Positions 4,605-15,412 are shown, counted from the first letter of the stretch. The stretch is 36,958 nucleotides of DNA from an uncultured Bacilli bacterium (GCA_947627925.1 CANQXW010000009.1:1-36958), one strand, 5' to 3'. The notes: a model not told the origin generated them from the sequence alone. Program-made: numbers and translations.

Positions 4605-4641
4605 ACATATAAAAAGCTACTACTTAACAGCAGTAGCTTTT
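4605..4641 (-). terminator. intrinsic terminator of the 4620-8626 operon
   Basis: A perfect 10-bp stem, AAAAGCTACT with AGTAGCTTTT (4612-4621 / 4632-4641), ends in a T-run on the minus strand. The stop codon of the Cys-rich protein gene lies inside the loop. Confidence 0.85.
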
Positions 4642-6461
4642 ACTTGTCTAGTTTCTCCAGTTCTTTCCCAACCATCTAAATATTCAAGTGGGCTCCATGT
4701 ATATCTATATTTTGTAACATTTTGACTTGAAACTGTTGGATTTACTTTAGTGACATTTCCTTGTGTACACTTAGAATCTGCACCTAAACCATATTTAGTA
4801 TAACCAGCAGGACAAGTATATTCGGTAGTTTTAATACCATTTTGCGTATCTTTTCCAGTTGATACACATTTACCATTTTGATCTTTAAATCCGTCAGGAC
4901 ATTTTGTAGATGTTTTCTTATCTGGTTCATATTCTTTTGGATAACATTTATGATCTTTATCATTTAATGTATAACCATTTTCACAACTATATTCTGGAGT
5001 TTTAACAGTTGTTAATTGAGTTTTATCTTCAATATCACATTTAGAACCATTTACTTTACCTGTTTCACAAGTATAAGTAGGTGTTGTTGGTGTTCCAGAT
5101 GGAGTATTTTGATAACATCTAAGACTTGCACCAGAACCAGTTTGAGAAGTAGTGCCACTTGGACAACTATAAGAATATGATGTGACAATTCCATTTTGAT
5201 ATGAGTAAGAAGCGCCACAATAATATGCGTAAACAGTTCTTGAACAATTAGTTCCACAAGTTTGTTTTACAGTTCCACTATAAGTACATCCTTGGTAGGT
5301 ATAATTATGTGGAGTTTTATAGTAAACATAGTAAGCATTACTCTTTTTATAACATTTAAGACTTGCACCACTACCACTATAAGGACTATATCCGCTAGGA
5401 CAACCATAATTAGCAATAGCTACTTTTGTAAGTTCTTTAGAAGAACCGGCAACAACACATTTGCCATCAACTAAATTACCTTGACTACATTTAGCAGTAG
5501 CATCAACTTGTTTGACGTCAGTTTTATAACATTTTAAGTCGGCTCCCGTACCTTCTTTGGAAGTAGTACCTTCTGGACAACTATAATTATATGTTACTTT
5601 TGAATTAACTGCGTCTTTAGTTTTAACACATTTAGCATTTGGATCTTCCCCAACTTTAGTGTAACCTTCTTTACAACTGTATTCAGTTGATTTTATTGGA
5701 TCAGTTGTAGTACTAGAATCTTTAGTACAAGTAACTTTTTCTCCATTAACAATTTTTTCATAACCATTAGGACAGTTATAAGTTACCACTTTAGTTGATG
5801 GAATAGTATTTTCATCACCTTTTAGACAAATGGTATTTTTACCACTACCGTTTTTAGTATAACCGGCAGGGCAACCATAAACGTTTTCTAAAGATGTGTA
5901 TGCTTGTTTATAACGATATTCTGTAGTTAAGTCACTTGGTTCTACAATAGTTACTTTACAATTACCACTAATACATAATTGGTTACAACCTAACTCTTCA
6001 GTTGTTTTAGCAACTTCAGTTCCACAAACTAGAGTAGTAGTCATATGATATTTACCATTAGTATTGGATACTGTAACATAACTTGCTTCGGTATCACAAG
6101 TACTACCATTATATCCAAATGATAAGATTAAATTTTTATCAATTAATTCTTGTAAAGTATATTTTAGAGTCATACCATTTTCTGGTAATTCGCTAATTAA
6201 GAAATATTCTTTAGCAGTATCATGGAAATATCTAAAGTTTTCAATATAATCTTTAGAATAATAATCAGTATTATTTAAAACATTGTTAATATTACCATTA
6301 TTATTGCCATTATCATAGTTAACATTAGAATTACCTGCATTATTGTTTCTGGCAAATAACCAAATTATTAAGAAAATGATTAAAGCGACTATAACAATTA
6401 ATATTCCTTTTTTTAGGACATTACCCCAATCAATACTTTTTCTTGGTTCTTCTACGTACAT
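4620..6461 (-). CDS. membrane-anchored protein with cysteine-paired repeats, unknown function
   Basis: I do not recognise a family. Seen: a short cytoplasmic start, one membrane helix (about 15-37), an Asn/Gly-rich linker, then an extracellular part. From about residue 195 to 590 it carries at least eight degenerate repeats of the form Y-x-C-P-x-G-Y/T-T/S, a short Gly/Ser turn, then K-C. Examples are YSCPSGTTSQTGSGASLRCY and YTCPAGYTKYGLGADSKC. Shorter C-x-x-G-x(4-6)-G-K-C units are interspersed. The even cysteine pairing suggests one disulfide per repeat, loosely EGF- or sushi-like. It starts 2 nt after the upstream gene, so the two are translated as a pair. Likely a stalk or adhesin; that is inference. 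Confidence 0.8.
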   Translation of the reverse strand: MYVEEPRKSIDWGNVLKKGILIVIVALIIFLIIWLFARNNNAGNSNVNYDNGNNNGNINNVLNNTDYYSKDYIENFRYFHDTAKEYFLISELPENGMTLKYTLQELIDKNLILSFGYNGSTCDTEASYVTVSNTNGKYHMTTTLVCGTEVAKTTEELGCNQLCISGNCKVTIVEPSDLTTEYRYKQAYTSLENVYGCPAGYTKNGSGKNTICLKGDENTIPSTKVVTYNCPNGYEKIVNGEKVTCTKDSSTTTDPIKSTEYSCKEGYTKVGEDPNAKCVKTKDAVNSKVTYNYSCPEGTTSKEGTGADLKCYKTDVKQVDATAKCSQGNLVDGKCVVAGSSKELTKVAIANYGCPSGYSPYSGSGASLKCYKKSNAYYVYYKTPHNYTYQGCTYSGTVKQTCGTNCSRTVYAYYCGASYSYQNGIVTSYSYSCPSGTTSQTGSGASLRCYQNTPSGTPTTPTYTCETGKVNGSKCDIEDKTQLTTVKTPEYSCENGYTLNDKDHKCYPKEYEPDKKTSTKCPDGFKDQNGKCVSTGKDTQNGIKTTEYTCPAGYTKYGLGADSKCTQGNVTKVNPTVSSQNVTKYRYTWSPLEYLDGWERTGETRQVKATAVK

Positions 6462-6463
6462 TA

Positions 6464-8626
6464 TTATTCACCGCTTTCTCTAGTTAAGGTCATTTCTTCG
6501 CCACATGTTTGGTTATATACTATATTAACAGCGCTAGAAGCTGTTTGGAATAAAGAATCCCATCTTTGGTATTCAGGACTTTCGCCATCGCCAATAGGAA
6601 TAAATGTAAACCATAATGGACCAACTACATCGTCCCAAGCAAGAGCAAAGTCACTAGGATTTTCAATTTTAGCTCTTTCATTGAATATTGGGTCTTCCAT
6701 TAAAACGTTTTCTTCTAAACTAGCTTCTATATTATTTAAATGATTTAATGAATTATCCATATTATTTAATGATTTAACAAATATTTCTAAATACATATAT
6801 GCTTTATTACTTAAATCCATATTGTATGGATCAGCTAAACAAGCTTCAACAATATCAACAAATCCTTCTAAGAATTCATCTAAATCACTACCAGCTGGAG
6901 CAATATCTCTTAAAGCTTCAATTCTATTTAAATCTTCATTAGTAATGCTGTTAATACCAGTAATTTTAGTATCGATTACATGAGCAGCGATTTCGTTCAT
7001 AACATCGTTTAAGGCAAGAGATGCTTCATCATTTTTATGAGTCATAATATCTCTATTGGCAATACCAACTACAAAACGAGTATAATCATTGATATTAGCT
7101 CCATTAAATAAGTTATAACTTTGTAATACATACGCTCTGTTAACATAATCTATAGCTTCTTGAGCAGTTAAATTTTGAGTTGCTCTAGCATTTTCATAAT
7201 CATTAATATAATTATAATTAAATCCTATGCATTGTGCATAACTTTCAACTCTAGAATCATATGGAACTTGTTTTAATATAGCAATTTGATCTTCTGAGAA
7301 GTTAAATGCCATAAAGTAAGCAGCATTATCAGAATAACCAATTTCTCTTAAAGCATCAACAACTTCTGGATTACTATTTTGCATCGCAATAATAGCTTCT
7401 GGTACTGGAGTAGGAGTAGGTTCTGCTTCTATAAGTTCTTCTGGTTGTGGATTATAATTAGGATCAACATATTCCATATAAGTATTATTATTACTATTAG
7501 ATCCCTTTCCATTAGAACGACCTATTAAGTAAGCACCTACTACAAGACTAATTCCAATAGCACCAGATAAAGCATAACATATTGCTTTTTGAATTTTGCT
7601 ATTATCTTTTTTAACAGGTTCAGGTTGTTTTACTGGTTCAGGCTTTTTAATAGGTTCGGGTTGCTTTACTGATTCAGTTTTTGGTGCTTGATCCGTTTTA
7701 TTATCCATATCTTTACCTCCTTCTGGTAATTGTTCTTCTTTTTTATCATCTTTTGCTTCTTCGTTATTAGCTTGTTCTTGTGTCTTTTCATCTTGATTAT
7801 CAATTTTAAATTCTTTAATTAAGTCTTCATAATGACTTAATTCTAAAGTATCAATTAATTTATTTAACGATTTTAATAATTCCTCTTTTTCAGAATCACT
7901 AATATCTTTTTGACTTAAATTTTCTAATTTAGTTCTTAAATCTTGTTCACTCATAAGTAGCAAGCTATAATCATATTTTGTTAAATTATCATATTCTTGT
8001 TTAGCTAAATCGTATTGTTTTTGAACATCGGTATTTTCAAATGCTTCGAAGTATTTTAAATCTTCTTCTAAAGTTTCAATCTCTTTTTTAACACCAGTAG
8101 TATCATGGTTATAAGCTTCTAAAGTTTTTAAATCTCTAACTTTAGCATTTAAAGCCTTTTTAAGAGCACTTTTAGAAGTCCATTTTTCTCTAGCTTTTAA
8201 AGTAAGTTTTAAATCATCCATCATGACTAATAAATCCTTAAGATAAGAGTTTAAATCATTACCCTCTAAATCAGGATTAATTTCTATTAATTTATTAAAA
8301 GTTTTAGTGCTATAACTATGGATTTCACTAACTAAATAATTAATAATTTCTTCTTTTTGCTTTTTAGATGTTCTTGCTGCTGTTAATTTTTTAATTTCAT
8401 TTCTATAAAGCTCAAAAATTGTTACTTTGCTTTTATATTCATCATATAAAGCTCTTTGTTTACTAAGCTCTTGACCTAATTTTGTATATTCGCTAAATTC
8501 TTCTTGAGTCATTTGACCATTATCTAGCTTACTTCTTAAAGCCTTTCTTTGTCTTTCTAATTTTGTTGTAGTACCTTTAATATTTTTGAGAAAATCATTT
8601 AATTTTTCTCTTAATTCATCTTTCAT
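6464..8626 (-). CDS. coiled-coil membrane protein with Pro-Glu-Pro linker, unknown function
   Basis: Not recognised. Residues 1-290 are charged and heptad-like, suggesting a long cytoplasmic coiled coil. A Glu/Gln/Lys-rich stretch follows, then a linker with three to four P-E-P-[IV]-K-[KQ] repeats (about 318-338). A single membrane helix (about 347-370) leads to an extracellular part of about 340 residues that starts with a Pro/Thr-rich spacer and has no cysteine-repeat motif. AAAGGGGG sits 7 nt before the ATG. A strong sigma-A promoter and flanking repeats lie just upstream. It is the first gene of a two-gene operon with the Cys-rich protein, so the two may form one envelope-spanning assembly. 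Confidence 0.8.
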   Translation of the reverse strand: MKDELREKLNDFLKNIKGTTTKLERQRKALRSKLDNGQMTQEEFSEYTKLGQELSKQRALYDEYKSKVTIFELYRNEIKKLTAARTSKKQKEEIINYLVSEIHSYSTKTFNKLIEINPDLEGNDLNSYLKDLLVMMDDLKLTLKAREKWTSKSALKKALNAKVRDLKTLEAYNHDTTGVKKEIETLEEDLKYFEAFENTDVQKQYDLAKQEYDNLTKYDYSLLLMSEQDLRTKLENLSQKDISDSEKEELLKSLNKLIDTLELSHYEDLIKEFKIDNQDEKTQEQANNEEAKDDKKEEQLPEGGKDMDNKTDQAPKTESVKQPEPIKKPEPVKQPEPVKKDNSKIQKAICYALSGAIGISLVVGAYLIGRSNGKGSNSNNNTYMEYVDPNYNPQPEELIEAEPTPTPVPEAIIAMQNSNPEVVDALREIGYSDNAAYFMAFNFSEDQIAILKQVPYDSRVESYAQCIGFNYNYINDYENARATQNLTAQEAIDYVNRAYVLQSYNLFNGANINDYTRFVVGIANRDIMTHKNDEASLALNDVMNEIAAHVIDTKITGINSITNEDLNRIEALRDIAPAGSDLDEFLEGFVDIVEACLADPYNMDLSNKAYMYLEIFVKSLNNMDNSLNHLNNIEASLEENVLMEDPIFNERAKIENPSDFALAWDDVVGPLWFTFIPIGDGESPEYQRWDSLFQTASSAVNIVYNQTCGEEMTLTRESGE

Positions 8627-8754: not shown

Positions 8755-9186
8755 TTAGTCTATTTTTCCAAGTAACCAATCAACAGATACATTAAATTTT
8801 TTAGCAAATTCATATATAAAATTAGTAGATATTAAATATCTTCCTTTTTCATATTCACACCAAACAGATGGTGATGTATTAAGAAATTTTGCTAATTTAC
8901 TTTGGGTGTAGTTGTTCATTTTTCGAGTTAATCTAAGCCGGTATTTAATTTTATCATAATCAATATCGGGCTTAATATTTTTGTAATTTTTCGTATCTGT
9001 AAGTCCTAAAGTATAATCTAAAGATACATTAAAGTAATTAGCAAAATCATTAAGTCTTTTTAAGGGCATAATATTATAAGTATTTTCTAAAACTGCATAT
9101 GTACTTCTTTTTATTCCTAGGGCCTCTGCTACTTCTCTTTGTTTTTTGTCACTAGACTCTCGAATCTCTTTCATTCTATTTAACAT
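8755..9186 (-). CDS. transcriptional regulator with two XRE-type HTH domains
   Basis: Two Cro/C1-like helix-turn-helix domains lie in one 143-residue chain: about 1-62 (K-K-Q-R-E-V-A-E-A-L-G-I-K-R-S-T-Y-A) and about 80-143 (Y-T-Q-S-K-L-A-K-F-L-N-T-S-P-S-V-W-C-E-Y-E). Both halves end in similar text, F-N-V-S-L-D-Y-T-L-G-L and F-N-V-S-V-D-W-L-L-G-K, so this is an internal duplication. ATG follows GGTGG by 6 nt. It sits between the membrane-protein operon, whose promoter carries repeats, and the divergent surface-protein/DGR locus. Either could be its target; the sequence does not decide. Confidence 0.88.
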   Translation of the reverse strand: MLNRMKEIRESSDKKQREVAEALGIKRSTYAVLENTYNIMPLKRLNDFANYFNVSLDYTLGLTDTKNYKNIKPDIDYDKIKYRLRLTRKMNNYTQSKLAKFLNTSPSVWCEYEKGRYLISTNFIYEFAKKFNVSVDWLLGKID

Positions 9187-9542: not shown

Positions 9543-10265
9543 GTGGACAAAAAGAAGTTCATTAAAAATTTAAATTATAGAAAAATTGCTTTAGGTCTTA
9601 TTGCAATTGCAGTAATTTCTTTAGTTGCTTGGGGTTTAAAAGACACTCATGCTTTTTATAGTACTAGTACAGAGTTAAAGGTATTTAGTACCACAATAGG
9701 CAATTTTGCTGGAGGTGGAGATACATCTACCTTAGAGAAGAATACCGACATTAATGTCTTATATTATGTTCAAGATATATTTAATACCACAAAATACAAT
9801 GTTGTAGCTAATGCTCCTGCAAATAGTAAACAATACAAATTAGATGAAAAGAGAAGCAATTGTATACCTAAAGAAAGTAGTAATTCAGGAGATACAGTAA
9901 GTTATAGTGATTATTCAATAGATGAGGCAACAGGAGAAGTAAAGCTAACAGTAACTGAAGATAAAATTCATCAAATAGTGTGCCGAATATATTATAGTTT
10001 TGAAATAGAGACATATGAAACATTTAATAGAGATGTAAATGTTGTAGCTTTAGTGGAATCAACAGAAGGAACAATCGTAACCATAAAAAATGGCAAAGCC
10101 TATTCTTTACAAGAAATACCTACTTCAGGATATAAAATAGGTAATGTTGAATGTACTAATAAAGATGAGGCAACAAAAACAAAGATTAATTATGAGAATG
10201 GTAATTTACAGGTAGATTATAAAGTAAAAGATTTATGTTATGTGTATTTTGATAAAGAGAGTTAG
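9543..10265 (+). CDS. membrane-anchored surface protein, partner of the DGR target
   Basis: No known family is assigned. It has a basic start, a membrane segment (about 14-32), then DTHAFYSTSTELKVFSTTIG, which recalls the region after the signal in TasA/camelysin-like proteins. Two similar modules follow, each with a cysteine near its start and another near its end before an aromatic strand (N-C-I-P ... V-C-R-I-Y-Y and V-E-C-T-N ... L-C-Y-V-Y-F). The start is GTG with GGAGG 10 nt upstream; an ATG at 9526 runs out of frame to a stop. The stop is 11 nt from the next ATG, so it is cotranscribed with the VR-bearing protein, which has the same module. Probably a structural or anchoring partner. 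Confidence 0.8.
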   Translation: MDKKKFIKNLNYRKIALGLIAIAVISLVAWGLKDTHAFYSTSTELKVFSTTIGNFAGGGDTSTLEKNTDINVLYYVQDIFNTTKYNVVANAPANSKQYKLDEKRSNCIPKESSNSGDTVSYSDYSIDEATGEVKLTVTEDKIHQIVCRIYYSFEIETYETFNRDVNVVALVESTEGTIVTIKNGKAYSLQEIPTSGYKIGNVECTNKDEATKTKINYENGNLQVDYKVKDLCYVYFDKES

Positions 10266-10276
10266 GAGTGAACGGA

Positions 10277-11536
10277 ATGAAGAGAAAAGTGTTTAGAAAT
10301 GTAGTAATAGCGTTATTGGTATTAGAAATACCGATGTTGTATCTAACATTTAGATCATATGCCAATAGAGATAAAGACATAAATAAAGTGAATTATAAAG
10401 AACAAGAAAATATTAAAACTAATAGTACATTAGCGTATTATCTAGATGGTGAACCTCAAGAAAATAGAAATAAATGGCCAACCGATTCACCTGATATCGC
10501 ATATTATAAAGCAGAGTGTTATGATGAAAACGATAGTCCAATAGAATCATCAGAAGTGGTAAGTTTTAATTATGAAGATCATACAGCAACAATAACAACC
10601 AAAAAGACCGTGTATTGTTCGTTATATTTTGCATCTAAAACATCACCAATAGGGGCATTAATATTAAATTCTGGTAATGATGGGAAAAAATATTTTGAAT
10701 CGGACGCAGACTTAACAGCTAGAAATAAAACAATAACAGGTAATTTTAAAGATGACTTAAGAAGATTTGTAGGTACATATAGTCAAGTAAAAAATAACTT
10801 TATCTGTTTTGGAACAGATAGTCAACAAACATGCAAAGACAATAAGGATACATACATGTATAGAATAATAGGAATAGATACAGAAGGAAGATTAAAAATA
10901 ATCAAAGCGACAAAATTAGTCCAAGGAAGCACAAGTACATTTCAATGGCATAATAGTTATAGTTCTGATATAACTTGGCCAAATTCAGATTTATATAAGA
11001 GATTAAATGGAAAAACCACAAATACATCATCATATCCAAATATATTTATAGGTAATGAGAAATATAATAGTTATATGTCAGACACAGAATGGACAAAATT
11101 AATAGATACGCCAAAATATTATATAGGAGATACAACATCAAGTAGTAATCCAACAGTATTTCAAAATGAAAAAAGTAAAGATTTAAGTGGAGAAAAAATA
11201 GGATTAATGTATTTAAGTGATTATTTATATGCAAATAAAGGTACAGCAGATACAAATAATTGGTTATTTATCCAAAATGGATTAAATAGAGCAAGCAACA
11301 CCCCAAGTGGATCAATTCCCCCAACAAATGATTATGAATGGACAATGACTAGGTATGGTAAGCACAGCAACGGCAATTACTATGCGTGGGATGTGCTTAA
11401 TAACGGGAGCGTGAACAACCCGATTTTGGACGATACGTATGCGGTTCGTCCAGTCTTCTATCTTTCATCCGAGATAACAATCACAGACGGTAACGGAGAT
11501 ATTGGAACTCCATATATAATTTCGGATGCGGCATAA
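10277..11536 (+). CDS. DGR target: membrane-anchored surface protein with variable C-terminal domain
   Basis: This protein is diversified by the retroelement. The ATG at 10277 is chosen because AGGAG (10264-10268) lies 8 nt upstream; an in-frame GTG at 10268 overlaps that site. Seen: a membrane anchor (about 9-26), a two-cysteine module (A-E-C-Y-D ... V-Y-C-S-L-Y-F) like those of the upstream protein, then a globular region from about 125. The C-terminal part (Y-R-I-I-G-I-D ... W-T-M-T-R-Y-G ... Y-A-V-R-P-V-F-Y-L) resembles surface domains of gut Firmicutes with a C-type-lectin or FGE-like fold, the usual scaffold for DGR variation. VR codes residues 359-395. The last 24 residues, T-D-G-N-G-D-I-G-T-P-Y-I-I, are constant. 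The ligand is unknown. Confidence 0.88.
   Translation: MKRKVFRNVVIALLVLEIPMLYLTFRSYANRDKDINKVNYKEQENIKTNSTLAYYLDGEPQENRNKWPTDSPDIAYYKAECYDENDSPIESSEVVSFNYEDHTATITTKKTVYCSLYFASKTSPIGALILNSGNDGKKYFESDADLTARNKTITGNFKDDLRRFVGTYSQVKNNFICFGTDSQQTCKDNKDTYMYRIIGIDTEGRLKIIKATKLVQGSTSTFQWHNSYSSDITWPNSDLYKRLNGKTTNTSSYPNIFIGNEKYNSYMSDTEWTKLIDTPKYYIGDTTSSSNPTVFQNEKSKDLSGEKIGLMYLSDYLYANKGTADTNNWLFIQNGLNRASNTPSGSIPPTNDYEWTMTRYGKHSNGNYYAWDVLNNGSVNNPILDDTYAVRPVFYLSSEITITDGNGDIGTPYIISDAA
11351..11461 (+). repeat. DGR variable repeat (VR)
   Basis: VR aligns with TR1 from AGGTATGG to TTCTAT. In the 78-nt core (from GCGTGG) it has nine substitutions, each at an A of TR1: seven of eleven Asn codons are changed (to Asp, Leu, Ser, Ile, Asp, Asp, Tyr) and one GAC becomes GTC. 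No non-A position differs in that core. The 3' end, GCGGTTCGTCCAG, is invariant and GC-rich, as expected for the initiation-of-mutagenic-homing element. At the 5' edge VR is 6 nt longer than TR1 and has two non-A differences. Confidence 0.93.
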
Positions 11537-11538
11537 AT

Positions 11539-11581
11539 AATCGCCTTGGAGGGCATATGGCCTCCGGGCGATTTCTTTTTT
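11539..11581 (+). terminator. strong terminator and hairpin after the DGR target gene
   Basis: AATCGCC (11539-11545) pairs with GGCGATT (11567-11573), with an inner GGAGG/CCTCC stem, followed by TCTTTTTTT. It is the most GC-rich hairpin in the window. It ends the surface-protein operon and separates it from the template RNA. DGR target sites are known to need a hairpin downstream of VR for efficient homing; this one is about 78 nt past VR, so a dual role is possible but unproven. Confidence 0.88.
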
Positions 11582-11610
11582 AGGGTTTTTAAAAAAATTT
11601 AAATAAATAT

Positions 11611-11638
11611 TTGAAATAATATTGTTTTAGTATATAAT
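11611..11638 (+). promoter_or_regulatory. promoter of template RNA 1
   Basis: TTGAAA (11611-11616) and TATAAT (11633-11638) with a 16-nt spacer lie just upstream of the TR1 unit and after a strong terminator. Template RNA therefore appears to have its own promoter. Start of transcription is expected near 11645, about 23 nt before TR1. Confidence 0.75.
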
Positions 11639-11644
11639 GATTTA

Positions 11645-11906
11645 TAGGTAATCTTGATATTAAAGTGAGGTATGGTTATAACGGCAATTCTAATGCGTGG
11701 AATGTGAATAATAACGGGAACGTGAACAACCCGAATTTGAACAATACGAATGCGGTTCGTCCAGACTTCTATAACTTGAATGAAAGTATGGTTAAGATTA
11801 TACTTTAGGGAAGATAGAAGACAAAGATTATCTAGGATGCATGTCCAAAATGAAAACAGAGATGGTAATCTTTACGAAGAAGCCTATTAACTCTGTTATT
11901 TTTTTT
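11645..11906 (+). ncRNA. DGR template RNA 1 (TR1 transcript)
   Basis: This non-coding unit is inferred from a promoter upstream, TR1 at 11668-11772, and a terminator made of AACAGAG (11855-11861) and CTCTGTT (11891-11897) followed by a T-run. DGR reverse transcriptases use such an RNA, with sequence on both sides of TR, to prime and template mutagenic cDNA. The flanks are shared nearly unchanged with the second unit; for example GGGAAGATAGAAGACAAAG lies just after the template in both. This supports a functional RNA rather than leftover coding sequence. Confidence 0.75.
11668..11772 (+). repeat. DGR template repeat 1 (TR1)
   Basis: 105 nt, direct orientation relative to VR and the RT gene. 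Read in the VR frame it is dominated by AAC/AAT codons, the signature of an adenine-mutagenesis template, since Asn codons give the widest amino-acid choice when A is randomised. Matches VR at all non-A positions in the 78-nt core ending at TTCTAT. Confidence 0.92.
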
Positions 11907-12004
11907 GACGAATTTTGTCGAAAAATTAGAAGTTTTGACAACGTTTGTCGAAAGTATTGCAATAAGAAAAAATATCGGTAAAATAGAGACCTCGAAAGCG
12001 AGGT
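11903..12004 (+). promoter_or_regulatory. operator-like repeats, promoter and RBS hairpin of the Rpn nuclease gene
   Basis: Two similar 21-nt boxes start at 11903 and 11933, exactly 30 bp apart. Each begins TTTTGAC and ends TTTGTCGAAA, and the second contains the dyad GACAA-CGT-TTGTC (11937-11949). Next come TTGCAA (11957-11962) and TAAAAT (11979-11984), spaced 16 nt. Then ACCTCG (11989-11994) and CGAGGT (11999-12004) form a 6-bp hairpin with an AAAG loop that buries the Shine-Dalgarno GAGG (12000-12003), 6 nt before the ATG. Confidence 0.7.
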
Positions 12005-12009
12005 GAACT

Positions 12010-12831
12010 ATGAATACAACTGAAGAAAAATATTATACATTGAAGTGTGACCGATTATTCAAATCAGCGATTGTGGATAATAATGACTATACAATTATGA
12101 ATAATATCTTGTCCGATATTTTAGATAGAGAAGTCCAAGTAAAAAGATATTATAATTCGGAATTGAAAGTCAAAAACAAAAAGAATAAAGAGAATAGATT
12201 AGATGTAGTCTTAGAAACAGAAGATGGAACATTTATTAGTTTAGAAGTTAATGGTAATTATGATAATCCAACCAAAAGAAGAAATTATATTTATTATTCA
12301 ATGTTGTATTCAGGGTTGCCATTAAGAGGATCAAAGAAAGGGGAAACAAAAGAAGTAATCCAAATAAATTTAAACTACAATGAAAGAAAGAATAAGCCAT
12401 TAAAAGAAGAGTATCTAATAATGAATAGAGAAGGAAATATTTTAATACAAAACTTTAAAATTATAAATGTGAATGTTGAAAGATATAAAGATACGTGGTA
12501 TGATAAAAATATCAAAGAAGATAGAAGACATATCTATCTAACAATGCTTGGGGCTAATAAAGAAGAGATAGAAGAGTTAGCCAAAATAGATAAAAAAATA
12601 AAAGAGGTGAGAGATAAAATGATAAGATTTAATGAAGATGGAACCATTACTAATGTATTAACGCCAGAAGAAGATGAGGAACTAATGAGAGCCTTAAGGG
12701 ATGAAGAAGCATATAATAATGGTGTCAAGGACACTGCCATTTCTATGGTAAAAGACAAAGTTCCTTTAAAAAAAGTGGCTCAATATACTAAATTAAGTAT
12801 CAAAGACTTAAAAAAATTAATAGTTAAATAA
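12010..12831 (+). CDS. Rpn-family PD-(D/E)XK nuclease / putative transposase-like protein
   Basis: It belongs by pattern to the recombination-promoting nuclease (Rpn/YhgA, PD-(D/E)XK) family. The start C-D-R-L-F-K-S-A-I-V-D-N is typical. Near residues 62-82, N-R-L-D-V-V-L-E-T-E-D-G-T-F-I-S-L-E-V-N supplies the Asp and Glu of the nuclease core, with Val-Asn where many relatives have Met-Gln. The C-terminus has the family's Glu/Lys helix and a short HTH-like tail (P-L-K-K-V-A-Q-Y-T-K-L-S-I-K-D-L). At 273 residues it is complete. It lies exactly between the two template units, with its own promoter, paired upstream boxes and an RBS hairpin, so expression looks tightly controlled. A link to DGR homing is inference. 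Confidence 0.85.
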   Translation: MNTTEEKYYTLKCDRLFKSAIVDNNDYTIMNNILSDILDREVQVKRYYNSELKVKNKKNKENRLDVVLETEDGTFISLEVNGNYDNPTKRRNYIYYSMLYSGLPLRGSKKGETKEVIQINLNYNERKNKPLKEEYLIMNREGNILIQNFKIINVNVERYKDTWYDKNIKEDRRHIYLTMLGANKEEIEELAKIDKKIKEVRDKMIRFNEDGTITNVLTPEEDEELMRALRDEEAYNNGVKDTAISMVKDKVPLKKVAQYTKLSIKDLKKLIVK

Positions 12832-12846
12832 AAAGACTAAATGCTT

Positions 12847-12852
12847 TATAAT
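12847..12852 (+). promoter_or_regulatory. promoter-like -10 box of template RNA 2
   Basis: TATAAT at 12847-12852 occupies the same position as the -10 box of unit 1, but the -35 (TTAAAT, 12824-12829, 17-nt spacer) is weak and lies over the end of the nuclease gene. Transcription may be weaker or may rely on readthrough from that gene. Confidence 0.5.
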
Positions 12853-12858
12853 AATTAT

Positions 12859-13125
12859 AGGTAATCTTGATATTAAAGTGAGGTATGGTTATAACGGTAG
12901 CAATTACCGTGCGCGGAATGTGAATAGTGACGGGACTGTGAACAACAACAATTTGAACAATACGAATGCGGTTCGTCCAGCCTTCTATAACTTGAATGAT
13001 AGTATGATTAAGGTTATACTTTAGGGAAGATAGAAGACAAAGATTATCTAGGATTAAATAATCCAAAACAAAAACAGAGATGGTATTCTTTACGAAGAAG
13101 CCTATTAACTCTGTTATTTTTTTTT
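12859..13125 (+). ncRNA. DGR template RNA 2 (TR2 transcript)
   Basis: A second copy of the template unit, collinear with unit 1 from the -10 box to the terminator (AACAGAG 13073-13079 with CTCTGTT 13109-13115 and a T-run). The flanks of TR2 are almost identical to those of TR1, while the template itself has diverged. Whether it is transcribed and used is not visible from the sequence. It may serve another target gene outside the window. Confidence 0.6.
12881..12988 (+). repeat. DGR template repeat 2 (TR2)
   Basis: 108 nt, direct orientation. It shares with TR1 the AAC/AAT-rich character and the invariant end (GCGGTTCGTCCAG, then TTCTAT). In the core it differs from TR1 at both A and non-A positions: TGG/CGG, AAT/AGT, AAC/GAC, AAC/ACT, CCG/AAC and GAC/GCC. 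It does not explain the VR in this window as well as TR1 does. Its AATTAC at the 5' side does match VR where TR1 does not. Confidence 0.8.
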
Positions 13126-13258
13126 AATTATCCAAAATAAAAAGCAAAATTTATTTAAAGATTTCTAATTTAATGATATAATTTGATTAGAATGGGAGTG
13201 ATAAATATTCAGAAACAATCAAAATTATTAGACATGCGACAAATTATTTAAGAAGAGG
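13126..13258 (+). promoter_or_regulatory. promoter region of the DGR avd-RT cassette
   Basis: This is the remaining part of the 427-bp gap that also holds TR2. TATAAT at 13177-13182 with a weak TTTAAA (13154-13159, 17-nt spacer) is the only promoter candidate before the four overlapping genes. A 19-codon frame (13192-13251) lies between it and the first gene; no function is claimed for it. Confidence 0.45.
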
Positions 13259-13648
13259 GTGGGAAAAATTAAAAATGATTATGTAGAATTAAGAAAATCA
13301 GGAAAATTTTATAATGTCTTTGGCGATGATGCCTTAGTGGTTCATTATCTAACAGGCTATAAAATTGTTGCGGAAAAAGGCGGAGTAGGATTTCCTGAAA
13401 CAGCTTATAATAAAGTTATAAATGCTTTAGAAGATGCTGAGGTAAATTACCGAGTTTATGAAAAAGAAGAAATAAAAGAAGAAAAAAATTTCAAGAAAAT
13501 TAATAATTATAAGGGAATATTAAAAAAGGGAATAAGTATTTTATCTATCGAAGAAAGATTTCAAAAAATCGAAAAAAAGATTAAAGGCTTAAATGCTAAA
13601 GAACTTGATCGGGTGCTTGAAGCAATAGAAGATGCAATATCGAACTGA
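13259..13648 (+). CDS. MutS domain I-like DGR accessory protein
   Basis: The first about 70 residues read like the mismatch-recognition domain I of MutS (K-S-G-K-F-Y-N-V-F-G-D-D-A, then G-F-P-E-T-A-Y-N-K-V-I-N-A-L-E, then V-N-Y-R-V-Y-E). The MutS ATPase and other domains are absent, and the rest is a Lys/Glu helix. Stand-alone MutS-like ORFs have been reported next to DGR reverse transcriptases; their role is unsettled. The start is uncertain. GTG at 13259 overlaps the purine-rich AGAAGAGGG, and an in-frame stop 27 nt upstream leaves no room for a longer form; a non-standard ATT at 13268 would be better spaced. It overlaps the Avd gene by 17 nt. Confidence 0.75.
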   Translation: MGKIKNDYVELRKSGKFYNVFGDDALVVHYLTGYKIVAEKGGVGFPETAYNKVINALEDAEVNYRVYEKEEIKEEKNFKKINNYKGILKKGISILSIEERFQKIEKKIKGLNAKELDRVLEAIEDAISN

Positions 13649-14012
13649 AAAATTTTTAATAATTAAAAATATGAAAAAATTTGTTTTGGGATTAGAAGTA
13701 ATGTTGACTAATTTTCCCAGAAAAGATTTTTTAAACAAAGATATGATATATAAAGATGCCTTAAAAATATTAGAATTAGTTTATACCGCTAATGAAATAG
13801 ATGATAGAGAGAAGAAAAAAGATTTACAAATTGAAATTTTAAGTAAACTTAATATGTTAGATTTTTATTTAGAAAGAGCTTATAAAAAAAGATATATTAA
13901 TGAAAAACAATGTTTAGCTAAATCAAATGAACTGGAACAAATATCGAGAATGGTTTATAAATGGATTAAAAATAGTCTAAATGAAAGTGAAAATACTGAT
14001 GAACAACTGTAA
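13632..14012 (+). CDS. avd: Avd-like DGR accessory variability determinant
   Basis: Avd binds the DGR reverse transcriptase and template RNA and is required for mutagenic cDNA synthesis. The 126-residue chain is almost wholly helical, with F-V-L-G-L-E-V-M-L-T-N-F-P-R-K-D, K-D-A-L-K-I-L-E-L-V-Y-T-A and L-N-M-L-D-F-Y-L-E-R-A-Y-K-K-R-Y-I. This fits the four-helix-bundle Avd/23S-IVP fold, whose usual length is about 120. A basic surface is expected, and Lys/Arg are frequent. It overlaps the upstream gene by 17 nt and the RT by 32 nt, indicating translational coupling. ATG at 13632 is used; Met at 13671 is an alternative. Assignment rests on pattern plus position beside a DGR-type RT. Confidence 0.85.
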   Translation: MQYRTEKFLIIKNMKKFVLGLEVMLTNFPRKDFLNKDMIYKDALKILELVYTANEIDDREKKKDLQIEILSKLNMLDFYLERAYKKRYINEKQCLAKSNELEQISRMVYKWIKNSLNESENTDEQL

Positions 14013-15123
14013 TTTAGAAAATGTTTTAAATTTATATGAGCAAGAAATATCCAAAAATGTTAAAAATAAACATAAGGTATTTATGTTTGAAAGAAATAAA
14101 TTTCAAAATATTGAGCATATAATCCATATTTTAAATAGTGGTATGTATGAAGGTGGACGTTATAATATTTTTTTAATTAAAGAGCCTAAGCATCGAATTG
14201 TGATGGCTTTGGATATTAGAGATAAAATAATTAATCATTTTATTGCTCGATATGTTTTAGAAAAAAAGTTATCTAAATATTTAGATGATCGAAATATTGC
14301 TACTAGAAAAGGAATGGGGACAGATTACGGAATTAAACTTTTAAAAAAATATTTAGAGTTAAATAAAAAGTATGGAACCTTTTATATTTTGAAATTAGAT
14401 ATAAGTAAATATTTTTATTCCATTGATCATGAAGTTTTAAAAGAGATGGTCAAAGATAAATTAACTAGTGAAGAGTTTAATTTTTTAAGTATTATTATTG
14501 ATAGTACGAATAAACCTTATGTTAATAGACGTATTGCTAATATTAAAGATAATTATTTAACTAAGCATCCAGAATTTACTAAAGAAGTATTAGCGCTACC
14601 ATATTATAATGAAGGTAAAGGGTTACCCATTGGAAATATGACTAGTCAATTTTTATCTATTTATTATTTATATGAATTAGATCATTATATTGTTCATAAT
14701 TTACATATTAAGCATTATATTCGTTATATGGATGATTTTGTTTTAATTCATCCTTCGAAAGCGGTTTTAGAAAATGCTAAAGATAAAATCGAAAAAATTT
14801 TAAATGAAAAGTATAAACTGAATTTAAATGCCAAGAAAACCAAGATTGTTAAATGTAATGAAGGCTTTTCTTTTTTAGGATATAATTATAAAGTTATAAA
14901 TAAGAAAACTATTGTGAAATTACGGCGAGAAGCTTATGAGAAAACTAAAAAAAGAGTTAAAAGAACCTATTATATGTATGAAAAAGGATTTATTGATTTT
15001 AATGCCGCTTTTTGCTCTATTATGTCTTATTGGTATAACCGTAAATATGGTAGCCAAATGAAAGTTAGAAGAGCTATTAATAAATATTGGTTTGAAAGGG
15101 TCCATTATGGGTTACAAAAATAG
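13981..15123 (+). CDS. DGR reverse transcriptase
   Basis: Copies template RNA into cDNA with adenine-directed errors. RT motifs appear in order: a basic N-terminal part; Y-I-L-K-L-D-I-S-K-Y-F-Y-S-I (motif A, Asp about 140); G-L-P-I-G-N-M-T-S-Q at 214-223; Y-M-D-D-F at 249-253 (catalytic pair); and G-F-S-F-L-G-Y later. The IGNxxSQ string instead of QGxxxSP separates DGR RTs from group II intron and retron enzymes and is linked to low fidelity. No maturase or endonuclease domain follows. Length of 380 fits the family. An alternative start at 13999 cuts the overlap with avd to 14 nt. The catalytic motifs are intact, so the enzyme should be active. Confidence 0.96.
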   Translation: MKVKILMNNCNLENVLNLYEQEISKNVKNKHKVFMFERNKFQNIEHIIHILNSGMYEGGRYNIFLIKEPKHRIVMALDIRDKIINHFIARYVLEKKLSKYLDDRNIATRKGMGTDYGIKLLKKYLELNKKYGTFYILKLDISKYFYSIDHEVLKEMVKDKLTSEEFNFLSIIIDSTNKPYVNRRIANIKDNYLTKHPEFTKEVLALPYYNEGKGLPIGNMTSQFLSIYYLYELDHYIVHNLHIKHYIRYMDDFVLIHPSKAVLENAKDKIEKILNEKYKLNLNAKKTKIVKCNEGFSFLGYNYKVINKKTIVKLRREAYEKTKKRVKRTYYMYEKGFIDFNAAFCSIMSYWYNRKYGSQMKVRRAINKYWFERVHYGLQK

Positions 15124-15412
15124 ATACATTTTTATTAAAAGGACTTATCCTAAAAGTGTAGTTGTGTTTATTAAAAAGGGAAAGTATGTAAGTTATGGTT
15201 TAGATAAAGAATTTTTAAAATATTGGCATTTTAAAAAAATTAATGATTTAAATTATTGGCATATTAATTATTTAGTAGTCGAAAATATGCAAATATTAGA
15301 ACATAAGGAATTTTTGAATAATTCCTATGATTTTCGTTATTATCAATTTCGGATGATGATGTTATTAAATAAGCTAAAAGAAAGAGAAATGGCCGATAAG
15401 TCGCTCATTTAA
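15107..15412 (+). CDS. second MutS domain I-like protein after the DGR RT
   Basis: A 101-residue protein. R-Y-I-F-I-K-R-T-Y-P-K-S-V-V-V-F-I-K-K-G-K-Y fits the start of MutS domain I (Tyr-Pro ... Phe ... Gly-Lys/Asp-Phe/Tyr), and Y-W-H-I-N-Y-L-V-V-E-N continues in step, but the F-G-D-D-A part is degraded to Y-G-L-D-K-E. The ATG at 15107 is chosen because GAAAGGG lies 6 nt upstream; an in-frame TTG at 15092 falls inside that site. It overlaps the RT stop by 17 nt. Together with the 13259 protein it brackets avd-RT. They may be two halves of one function or a heteromeric pair. Weaker assignment than the first copy. Confidence 0.6.
   Translation: MGYKNRYIFIKRTYPKSVVVFIKKGKYVSYGLDKEFLKYWHFKKINDLNYWHINYLVVENMQILEHKEFLNNSYDFRYYQFRMMMLLNKLKEREMADKSLI

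Follow-up and report, generated by a model that had tools for sequence, protein, structure and literature searches.

Positions 9543 to 15412 of the window, a contig of 36,958 nucleotides (contig 9) from the uncultured Bacilli draft genome G000 (1.16 Mb, 56 contigs, 88% complete), in all probability form the hub of a chromosomal diversity-generating retroelement (DGR) acting in trans, with several template RNAs, one reverse transcriptase (RT), dispersed targets and variable repeats (VRs) that are mosaics of templates. Judged from sequence, the locus is confirmed as a complete chromosomal DGR, comprising a target gene with its VR, adenine-rich templates, an Avd protein and an RT of the DGR clade, and its one RT and six template repeats (TRs) appear to serve at least eleven scattered surface-protein genes. 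The first-pass annotation had described a complete DGR at this place, and all the parts it listed are present, but it understated the extent of a genome-wide system, missing the MutS_I-like gene at 13259-13648, the Rpn/PDDEXK gene, the open reading frame (ORF) at 15092-15412, four further TRs and ten further VRs. The parts, the A-specificity of the variation, the dispersed arrangement, the conserved RNA structure and the relation of one RT to many VRs can be read directly from the DNA.

The hub and its chromosomal setting

The hub carries, in this order, a secreted partner protein, the target, TR1, an Rpn-type nuclease, TR2, a MutS_I-like protein, Avd, the RT and orf4, all on the forward strand. 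The RT gene (13981-15123), which bears LPIGNMTSQ and YMDD, encodes the only RT found in a search of the 1.16-Mb draft, and its best sequence match in the PDB is 8ub7, titled 'Reverse transcriptase' (3e-23), which we take to be the Bordetella phage DGR RT complex. The first-pass annotation had placed the protein in the DGR clade from I-G-N-M-T-S-Q and Y-M-D-D and had proposed a phylogeny as a check; the resulting tree, which combines three group II intron RTs with five DGR-type RTs from phages or plasmids and with relatives from the gut and elsewhere, bears this out, the hub RT falling among gut Bacilli RTs within the IGNxxSQ group and the group II introns standing apart at 100/100. Two DGR accessories were recognised beside it. 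The Avd-like protein noted earlier lies at 13632-14012 and matches the PHROG 'Avd protein of DGR' at 7.7e-17, its matches to Pfam bAvd (6.7e-7, 30.2 bits, cut-off 40) and NCBIfam DGR Avd (5.8e-10, 39.4 bits, cut-off 80) lying below the curated cut-offs. The other is the MutS-domain-I-like accessory (MSL) at 13259-13648, with a Pfam MutS_I match above cut-off (2.5e-6), a family (PF01624) already known to accompany DGRs (PMC10053308).

The last gene, orf4 (15092-15412), overlaps the end of the RT gene, and the 15 RT-bearing congeners searched all have it immediately after the RT. It matched nothing in Pfam (MutS_I included), NCBIfam, PHROGs or PADLOC, and nothing of note in the PDB by sequence. 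Its AlphaFold model (pLDDT 89) returned MutS/MSH proteins in all of the top 30 VIA rows, at Z 4.5-7.1 over 57-77 residues and with none reaching Z 8, the next unrelated structural match scoring Z 2.6; the Foldseek match to MutS/MSH has an E value of only 0.35, and a profile comparison of orf4 with MSL gave a probability of 85 and E 7e-6. Model and profile together indicate that orf4 is probably a second MutS-domain-I-like protein, here termed MSL2. The Rpn/PDDEXK_2 nuclease gene between TR1 and TR2 (12010-12831; Pfam PDDEXK_2, 3e-14) has counterparts elsewhere, such genes adjoining 5/6 G000 TRs in the same orientation (window, C10, C19 and C25); the chance figure of 2.6e-10 for this adjacency presumes an independence that duplication violates. 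Rpn/PDDEXK_2 genes are also interleaved with TRs in the hub of a sister species.

The flanks of the hub are housekeeping in character, with a HIGH nucleotidyltransferase, an IPP transferase (MiaA), ribosomal protein S20, SpoIIP and, identified by eye, a PNPase-like ORF, and the gene order downstream is common to sister species. This context and synteny agree with the earlier statement that the DGR sits on the cell's own chromosome without phage genes around it, and the 'wall-bearing' host it had proposed is in keeping with five transpeptidase (PF00905) matches found in the genome. A phage origin was considered and rejected, given these neighbours, the lack of any match to the TR tail motif in IMG/VR and the distance of the nearest viral RTs there, at most 35% identical to the hub RT; the two IMG/VR results argue for a cellular DGR. 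An XRE-type double HTH regulator (8755-9186, reverse strand; Pfam HTH_19, 7.9e-20) is divergent from the target operon, and HTH-like ORFs, read from translations, lie near targets on C1, C7, C12 and C20, which is an association only. Two large anchored proteins on the reverse strand (4620-6461 and 6464-8626), one of them repetitive and cysteine-rich, also adjoin the DGR and received no confident family assignment.

Targets, homing signal and template RNAs

The target gene (10268-11536, ATG at 10277), delimited by its ORF and by paralog alignment, encodes a protein with an N-terminal hydrophobic anchor and a C-terminal VR, as had been described for a membrane-anchored protein from the sequence alone. 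The VR, defined by comparison with the templates, spans 11351-11440 near the 3' end of the coding sequence and is followed directly by the 21-bp homing signal (IMH) GCGGTTCGTCCAGTCTTCTAT at 11441-11461. This signal is unlike the IMH* of the templates: its 14th base is T in every VR and A or C in every TR, so that one shared place always reads GTC in VRs and GAC or GCC in TRs. Upstream lies the gene of the partner, a secreted protein with a signal or anchor (9543-10265), which precedes the VR gene in nearly all target operons, similar ORFs of ~225-257 amino acids standing upstream of the targets on C1, C4, C5, C7, C8, C10, C12, C17 and C20. Across ten paralogs the target scaffold shows 57-76% identity to the window protein, with hypervariability mainly in the VR, in an alignment of ten VR-bearing targets and a signal-less C5 paralog that leaves out the C31 target, cut by a contig end. 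The homing signal has been lost or is lacking in three further paralogs (C5, C6 and C16); the synonymous codons of the IMH are the same across targets and are not so in the IMH-less paralogs. An AlphaFold model of the target built with 11 paralogs was poor (pLDDT 39), a PDB profile search gave no sequence match for it, and weak DUF6273 matches occur in 2/11 family members, so a C-type-lectin/FGE fold and ligand binding are putative. Just behind the VR gene, at 11545-11582, stands a GC-rich hairpin (AATCGCC...GGCGATT), and similar hairpins follow the targets on C1, C13, C17, C20 and C31; they may be either terminators or homing-related structures.

Downstream of the target, where adenine-rich templates had been reported, two stand-alone template RNA units are found, TR1 at 11633-11906 (core 11668-11751, IMH* 11752-11772) and TR2 at 12847-13124 (core 12881-12967, IMH* 12968-12988). 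TR1 consists of a -10-like TATAAT, the leader GGTAATCTTG, the core, the IMH*, a structured tail and a terminator. A search with TR1 recovers six units of ~275 nt from G000, about 90% identical; besides the two in the window, C5, C10, C19 and C25 carry one apiece. The cores of the C19 and C25 units are identical, and the six are partly recent duplicates. Cores diverge about threefold faster than flanks in G000 (0.167 vs 0.051). The TRs were also considered as DGR targets themselves, and this was rejected on the differences between their cores, which show no A bias (0.67 vs 0.64 expected, G000).

An IMH* that varies in some species and a tail of 134 positions ending in the terminator are common to 17 TRs from seven genomes, and RNAalifold predicts five helices in the tail. 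In this alignment 15/33 pairs are changed on both sides and 98.6% of cells are paired; 0/500 shuffles reach 15 pairs and slid controls give 2-4, the structure being favoured in both controls through its derivation from the alignment on which it was tested. A covariance model of the TR finds the element in 32/385 genomes of the order, with one to at least eight TRs per genome in this genus and one or two in other genera of the family.

Adenine-specific variation and a dispersed repertoire

Over the last 60 nt of the window VR, mismatches to TR1 fall at 9/25 template adenines and at 0/35 other sites, and TR1 is its best match among the G000 TRs. Such a pairing would be expected of a classic cis DGR, in which TR1 and the adjacent VR alone function and the remaining TRs and VRs are inert duplication relics, and some remote VRs do lie far from any TR. 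This reading is nevertheless unlikely, since leader, tail and terminator are kept in 6/6 G000 TRs, the exact IMH, synonymous sites included, is kept in ten targets, and the cleanest VRs of the sister species G001 are remote ones (20/35 at A with 0/52 at non-A, and 13/35 with 0/49). Across G000, TR and VR differ mainly at template adenines (174/348 at A vs 126/597 at non-A, p=6.5e-20), and likewise in G001 (168/311 vs 44/451), G004 (299/572 vs 218/1102) and G006 (238/431 vs 153/754; each p<1e-19), each VR being compared with its best-scoring TR and the hypergeometric p treating sites as independent. The pattern is cleaner in sister species than in G000. The A/non-A mismatch ratio is 2.2-3.6 from TR to VR and 0.68-1.17 from TR to TR, the negative control, which makes the A signal specific to TR-to-VR transfer. 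Many differences at non-A sites are seen in the VRs on C1, C8 and C10 of G000, so that the repertoire may in part be old or stem from TRs outside the 88%-complete assembly.

The window VR also looks like a mosaic of two TR types when read from its sequence: its 5' part matches a type for which the only examples come from a sister species, and read as this type (5') joined to TR1 (3') it carries zero non-A cost. Two templates fitted better than one at p<0.05, uncorrected and with 60 simulations per VR, in 3/11, 4/9 and 11/19 VRs; these signals could instead come from unseen templates. Mosaic VRs, and Rpn nuclease genes beside most TRs, are what gene conversion might leave if the TRs were silent donors recombined into expressed genes by a RecA/Rpn-type route without reverse transcription. 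We regard that route as very improbable, given that donor and acceptor differ A-specifically, which is not a product of conversion, and that an intact DGR RT and Avd adjoin the templates. Less credible still is a family of ordinary surface-protein paralogs shaped by diversifying selection, with template-like sequences present by chance; this reading would account for the shared scaffold of the targets and is refuted by the A-specific differences, by non-coding TR RNAs with covarying structure and by the exact IMH.

A trans-acting DGR accords with the inventory of G000, namely one RT, six TRs and 11 IMH-bearing target genes. The homing-signal search found 17 places on 14 contigs, of which 11 are VRs in the terminal part of anchored surface proteins. 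Among sister species, a genome of 1.1-1.4 Mb can contain at least eight TRs or about 40 homing sites. Within the genus, 19/38 genomes have an RT match, which in some cases is a fragment or a more distant RT, and the RT gene carries stops, is split or survives as a remnant in G088, G407, G077 and G197; in G077, ~3.4 kb splits it around residue 218. IMH-like sites were counted with two mismatches allowed and with TR sites taken in. Most of the RT-bearing congeners searched have 7-40 of them and most of those lacking an intact RT have 0-2, though there are exceptions. G213, the assembly of G006, has 40 such sites and one TR found; G197 keeps six with an RT remnant only; and G055, a 94%-complete assembly, has at least eight TR units and 11 sites, with neither RT nor orf4 found in it. 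G161 and G390 possess an RT, yet sites with this IMH are nearly absent from both, perhaps owing to a different IMH of their own.

Proposed mechanism and relation to known DGRs

The short template RNAs, six in the assembly, would be transcribed separately, each unit comprising leader, A-rich core and structured 3' tail, and RT and Avd would copy them with random bases at A. The cDNA would then replace the 3' part of target genes bearing the 21-bp homing signal, which ends in GTCTTCTAT. The eleven targets in G000 encode what appear to be surface proteins with an N-terminal anchor, most of which have a secreted partner. Since TRs differ, successive homing from different TRs would yield VRs that are both mosaic and point-mutated, and the two MutS-domain-I-like proteins encoded in the hub operon may protect mismatched intermediates or direct their integration. 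On this reading retrohoming would be active at the present day, VRs would arise by the mosaic route, and MSL, MSL2, the Rpn nuclease and the partner protein would have roles in the system. A more specific version, put forward tentatively and with more doubt than conviction, is a combinatorial DGR with one RT and a pool of divergent TR RNAs, each transcribed on its own, in which the 5' and 3' halves of the VRs in targets across the chromosome come from different templates and a dedicated MutS-domain-I pair lets heavily mismatched intermediates escape mismatch repair.

The DGR of Bordetella phage BPP-1 (bRT-Avd-TR-mtd), the trailing RNA of which is also predicted to be structured (PMC8867640), shares the IG(N/S)xxSQ-type RT, Avd, the A-rich TR, a VR at the 3' end and the IMH/IMH* difference; unlike it, the G000 DGR is cellular, pairs a single RT with many scattered VRs and TRs, the latter as separate units with their own terminators, and includes two MutS-like accessories. 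Remote or multiple VRs are already known (PMC7517822, PMC8867640, PMC10907252, PMC6642488), and multiple TRs occur in a minority of DGRs (PMC6642488). Cyanobacterial DGRs (PMC7517822), including that of Trichodesmium with 18 TR/VR loci and two DGR-RTs (PMC8867640), resemble the present one in their many remote targets, homology near the target 3' end and nearby transposase genes, and differ in that here one RT goes with six to at least eight templates and targets are secreted or anchored, those of cyanobacteria being mostly cytosolic. Thiohalocapsa PB-PSB1 likewise diversifies remote targets in trans with perfect non-A matches, in contrast to the single RT hub here from several DGR loci (PMC10907252), while Treponema denticola shares cellular surface-protein targets, remote targets and several TR types, which differ between strains or individuals there and coexist in one assembly here (PMC4891356). 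The MetaCSST survey records multiple TRs and VRs, as in Stenotrophomonas SKA14 with two TRs and six VRs; its example with six TRs and 91 pairs is atypical, with few A-to-N changes (PMC6642488), unlike the six TRs and 11 A-specifically changed VRs of G000. In the papers compared, the main 2018 DGR survey aside, no precedent was found for a ~1-Mb genome that combines one RT, numerous divergent TRs in stand-alone units, dispersed VRs by the tens and a second MutS-like protein.

These findings suggest that a small-genome lineage of gut Bacilli devotes a single retroelement to rewriting its whole surface-protein repertoire, one relative of ~1.1 Mb having about 40 sites with the homing signal. If the combinatorial reading were true, diversity would arise from template shuffling on top of A-mutagenesis. 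The covariation-supported structure of the TR RNA is present in many copies, and through MSL2, a probable new accessory, a connection of DGRs with mismatch repair becomes open to testing. Species with an intact, decayed or missing RT form a natural series in which the effect of a DGR on genomes can be gauged.
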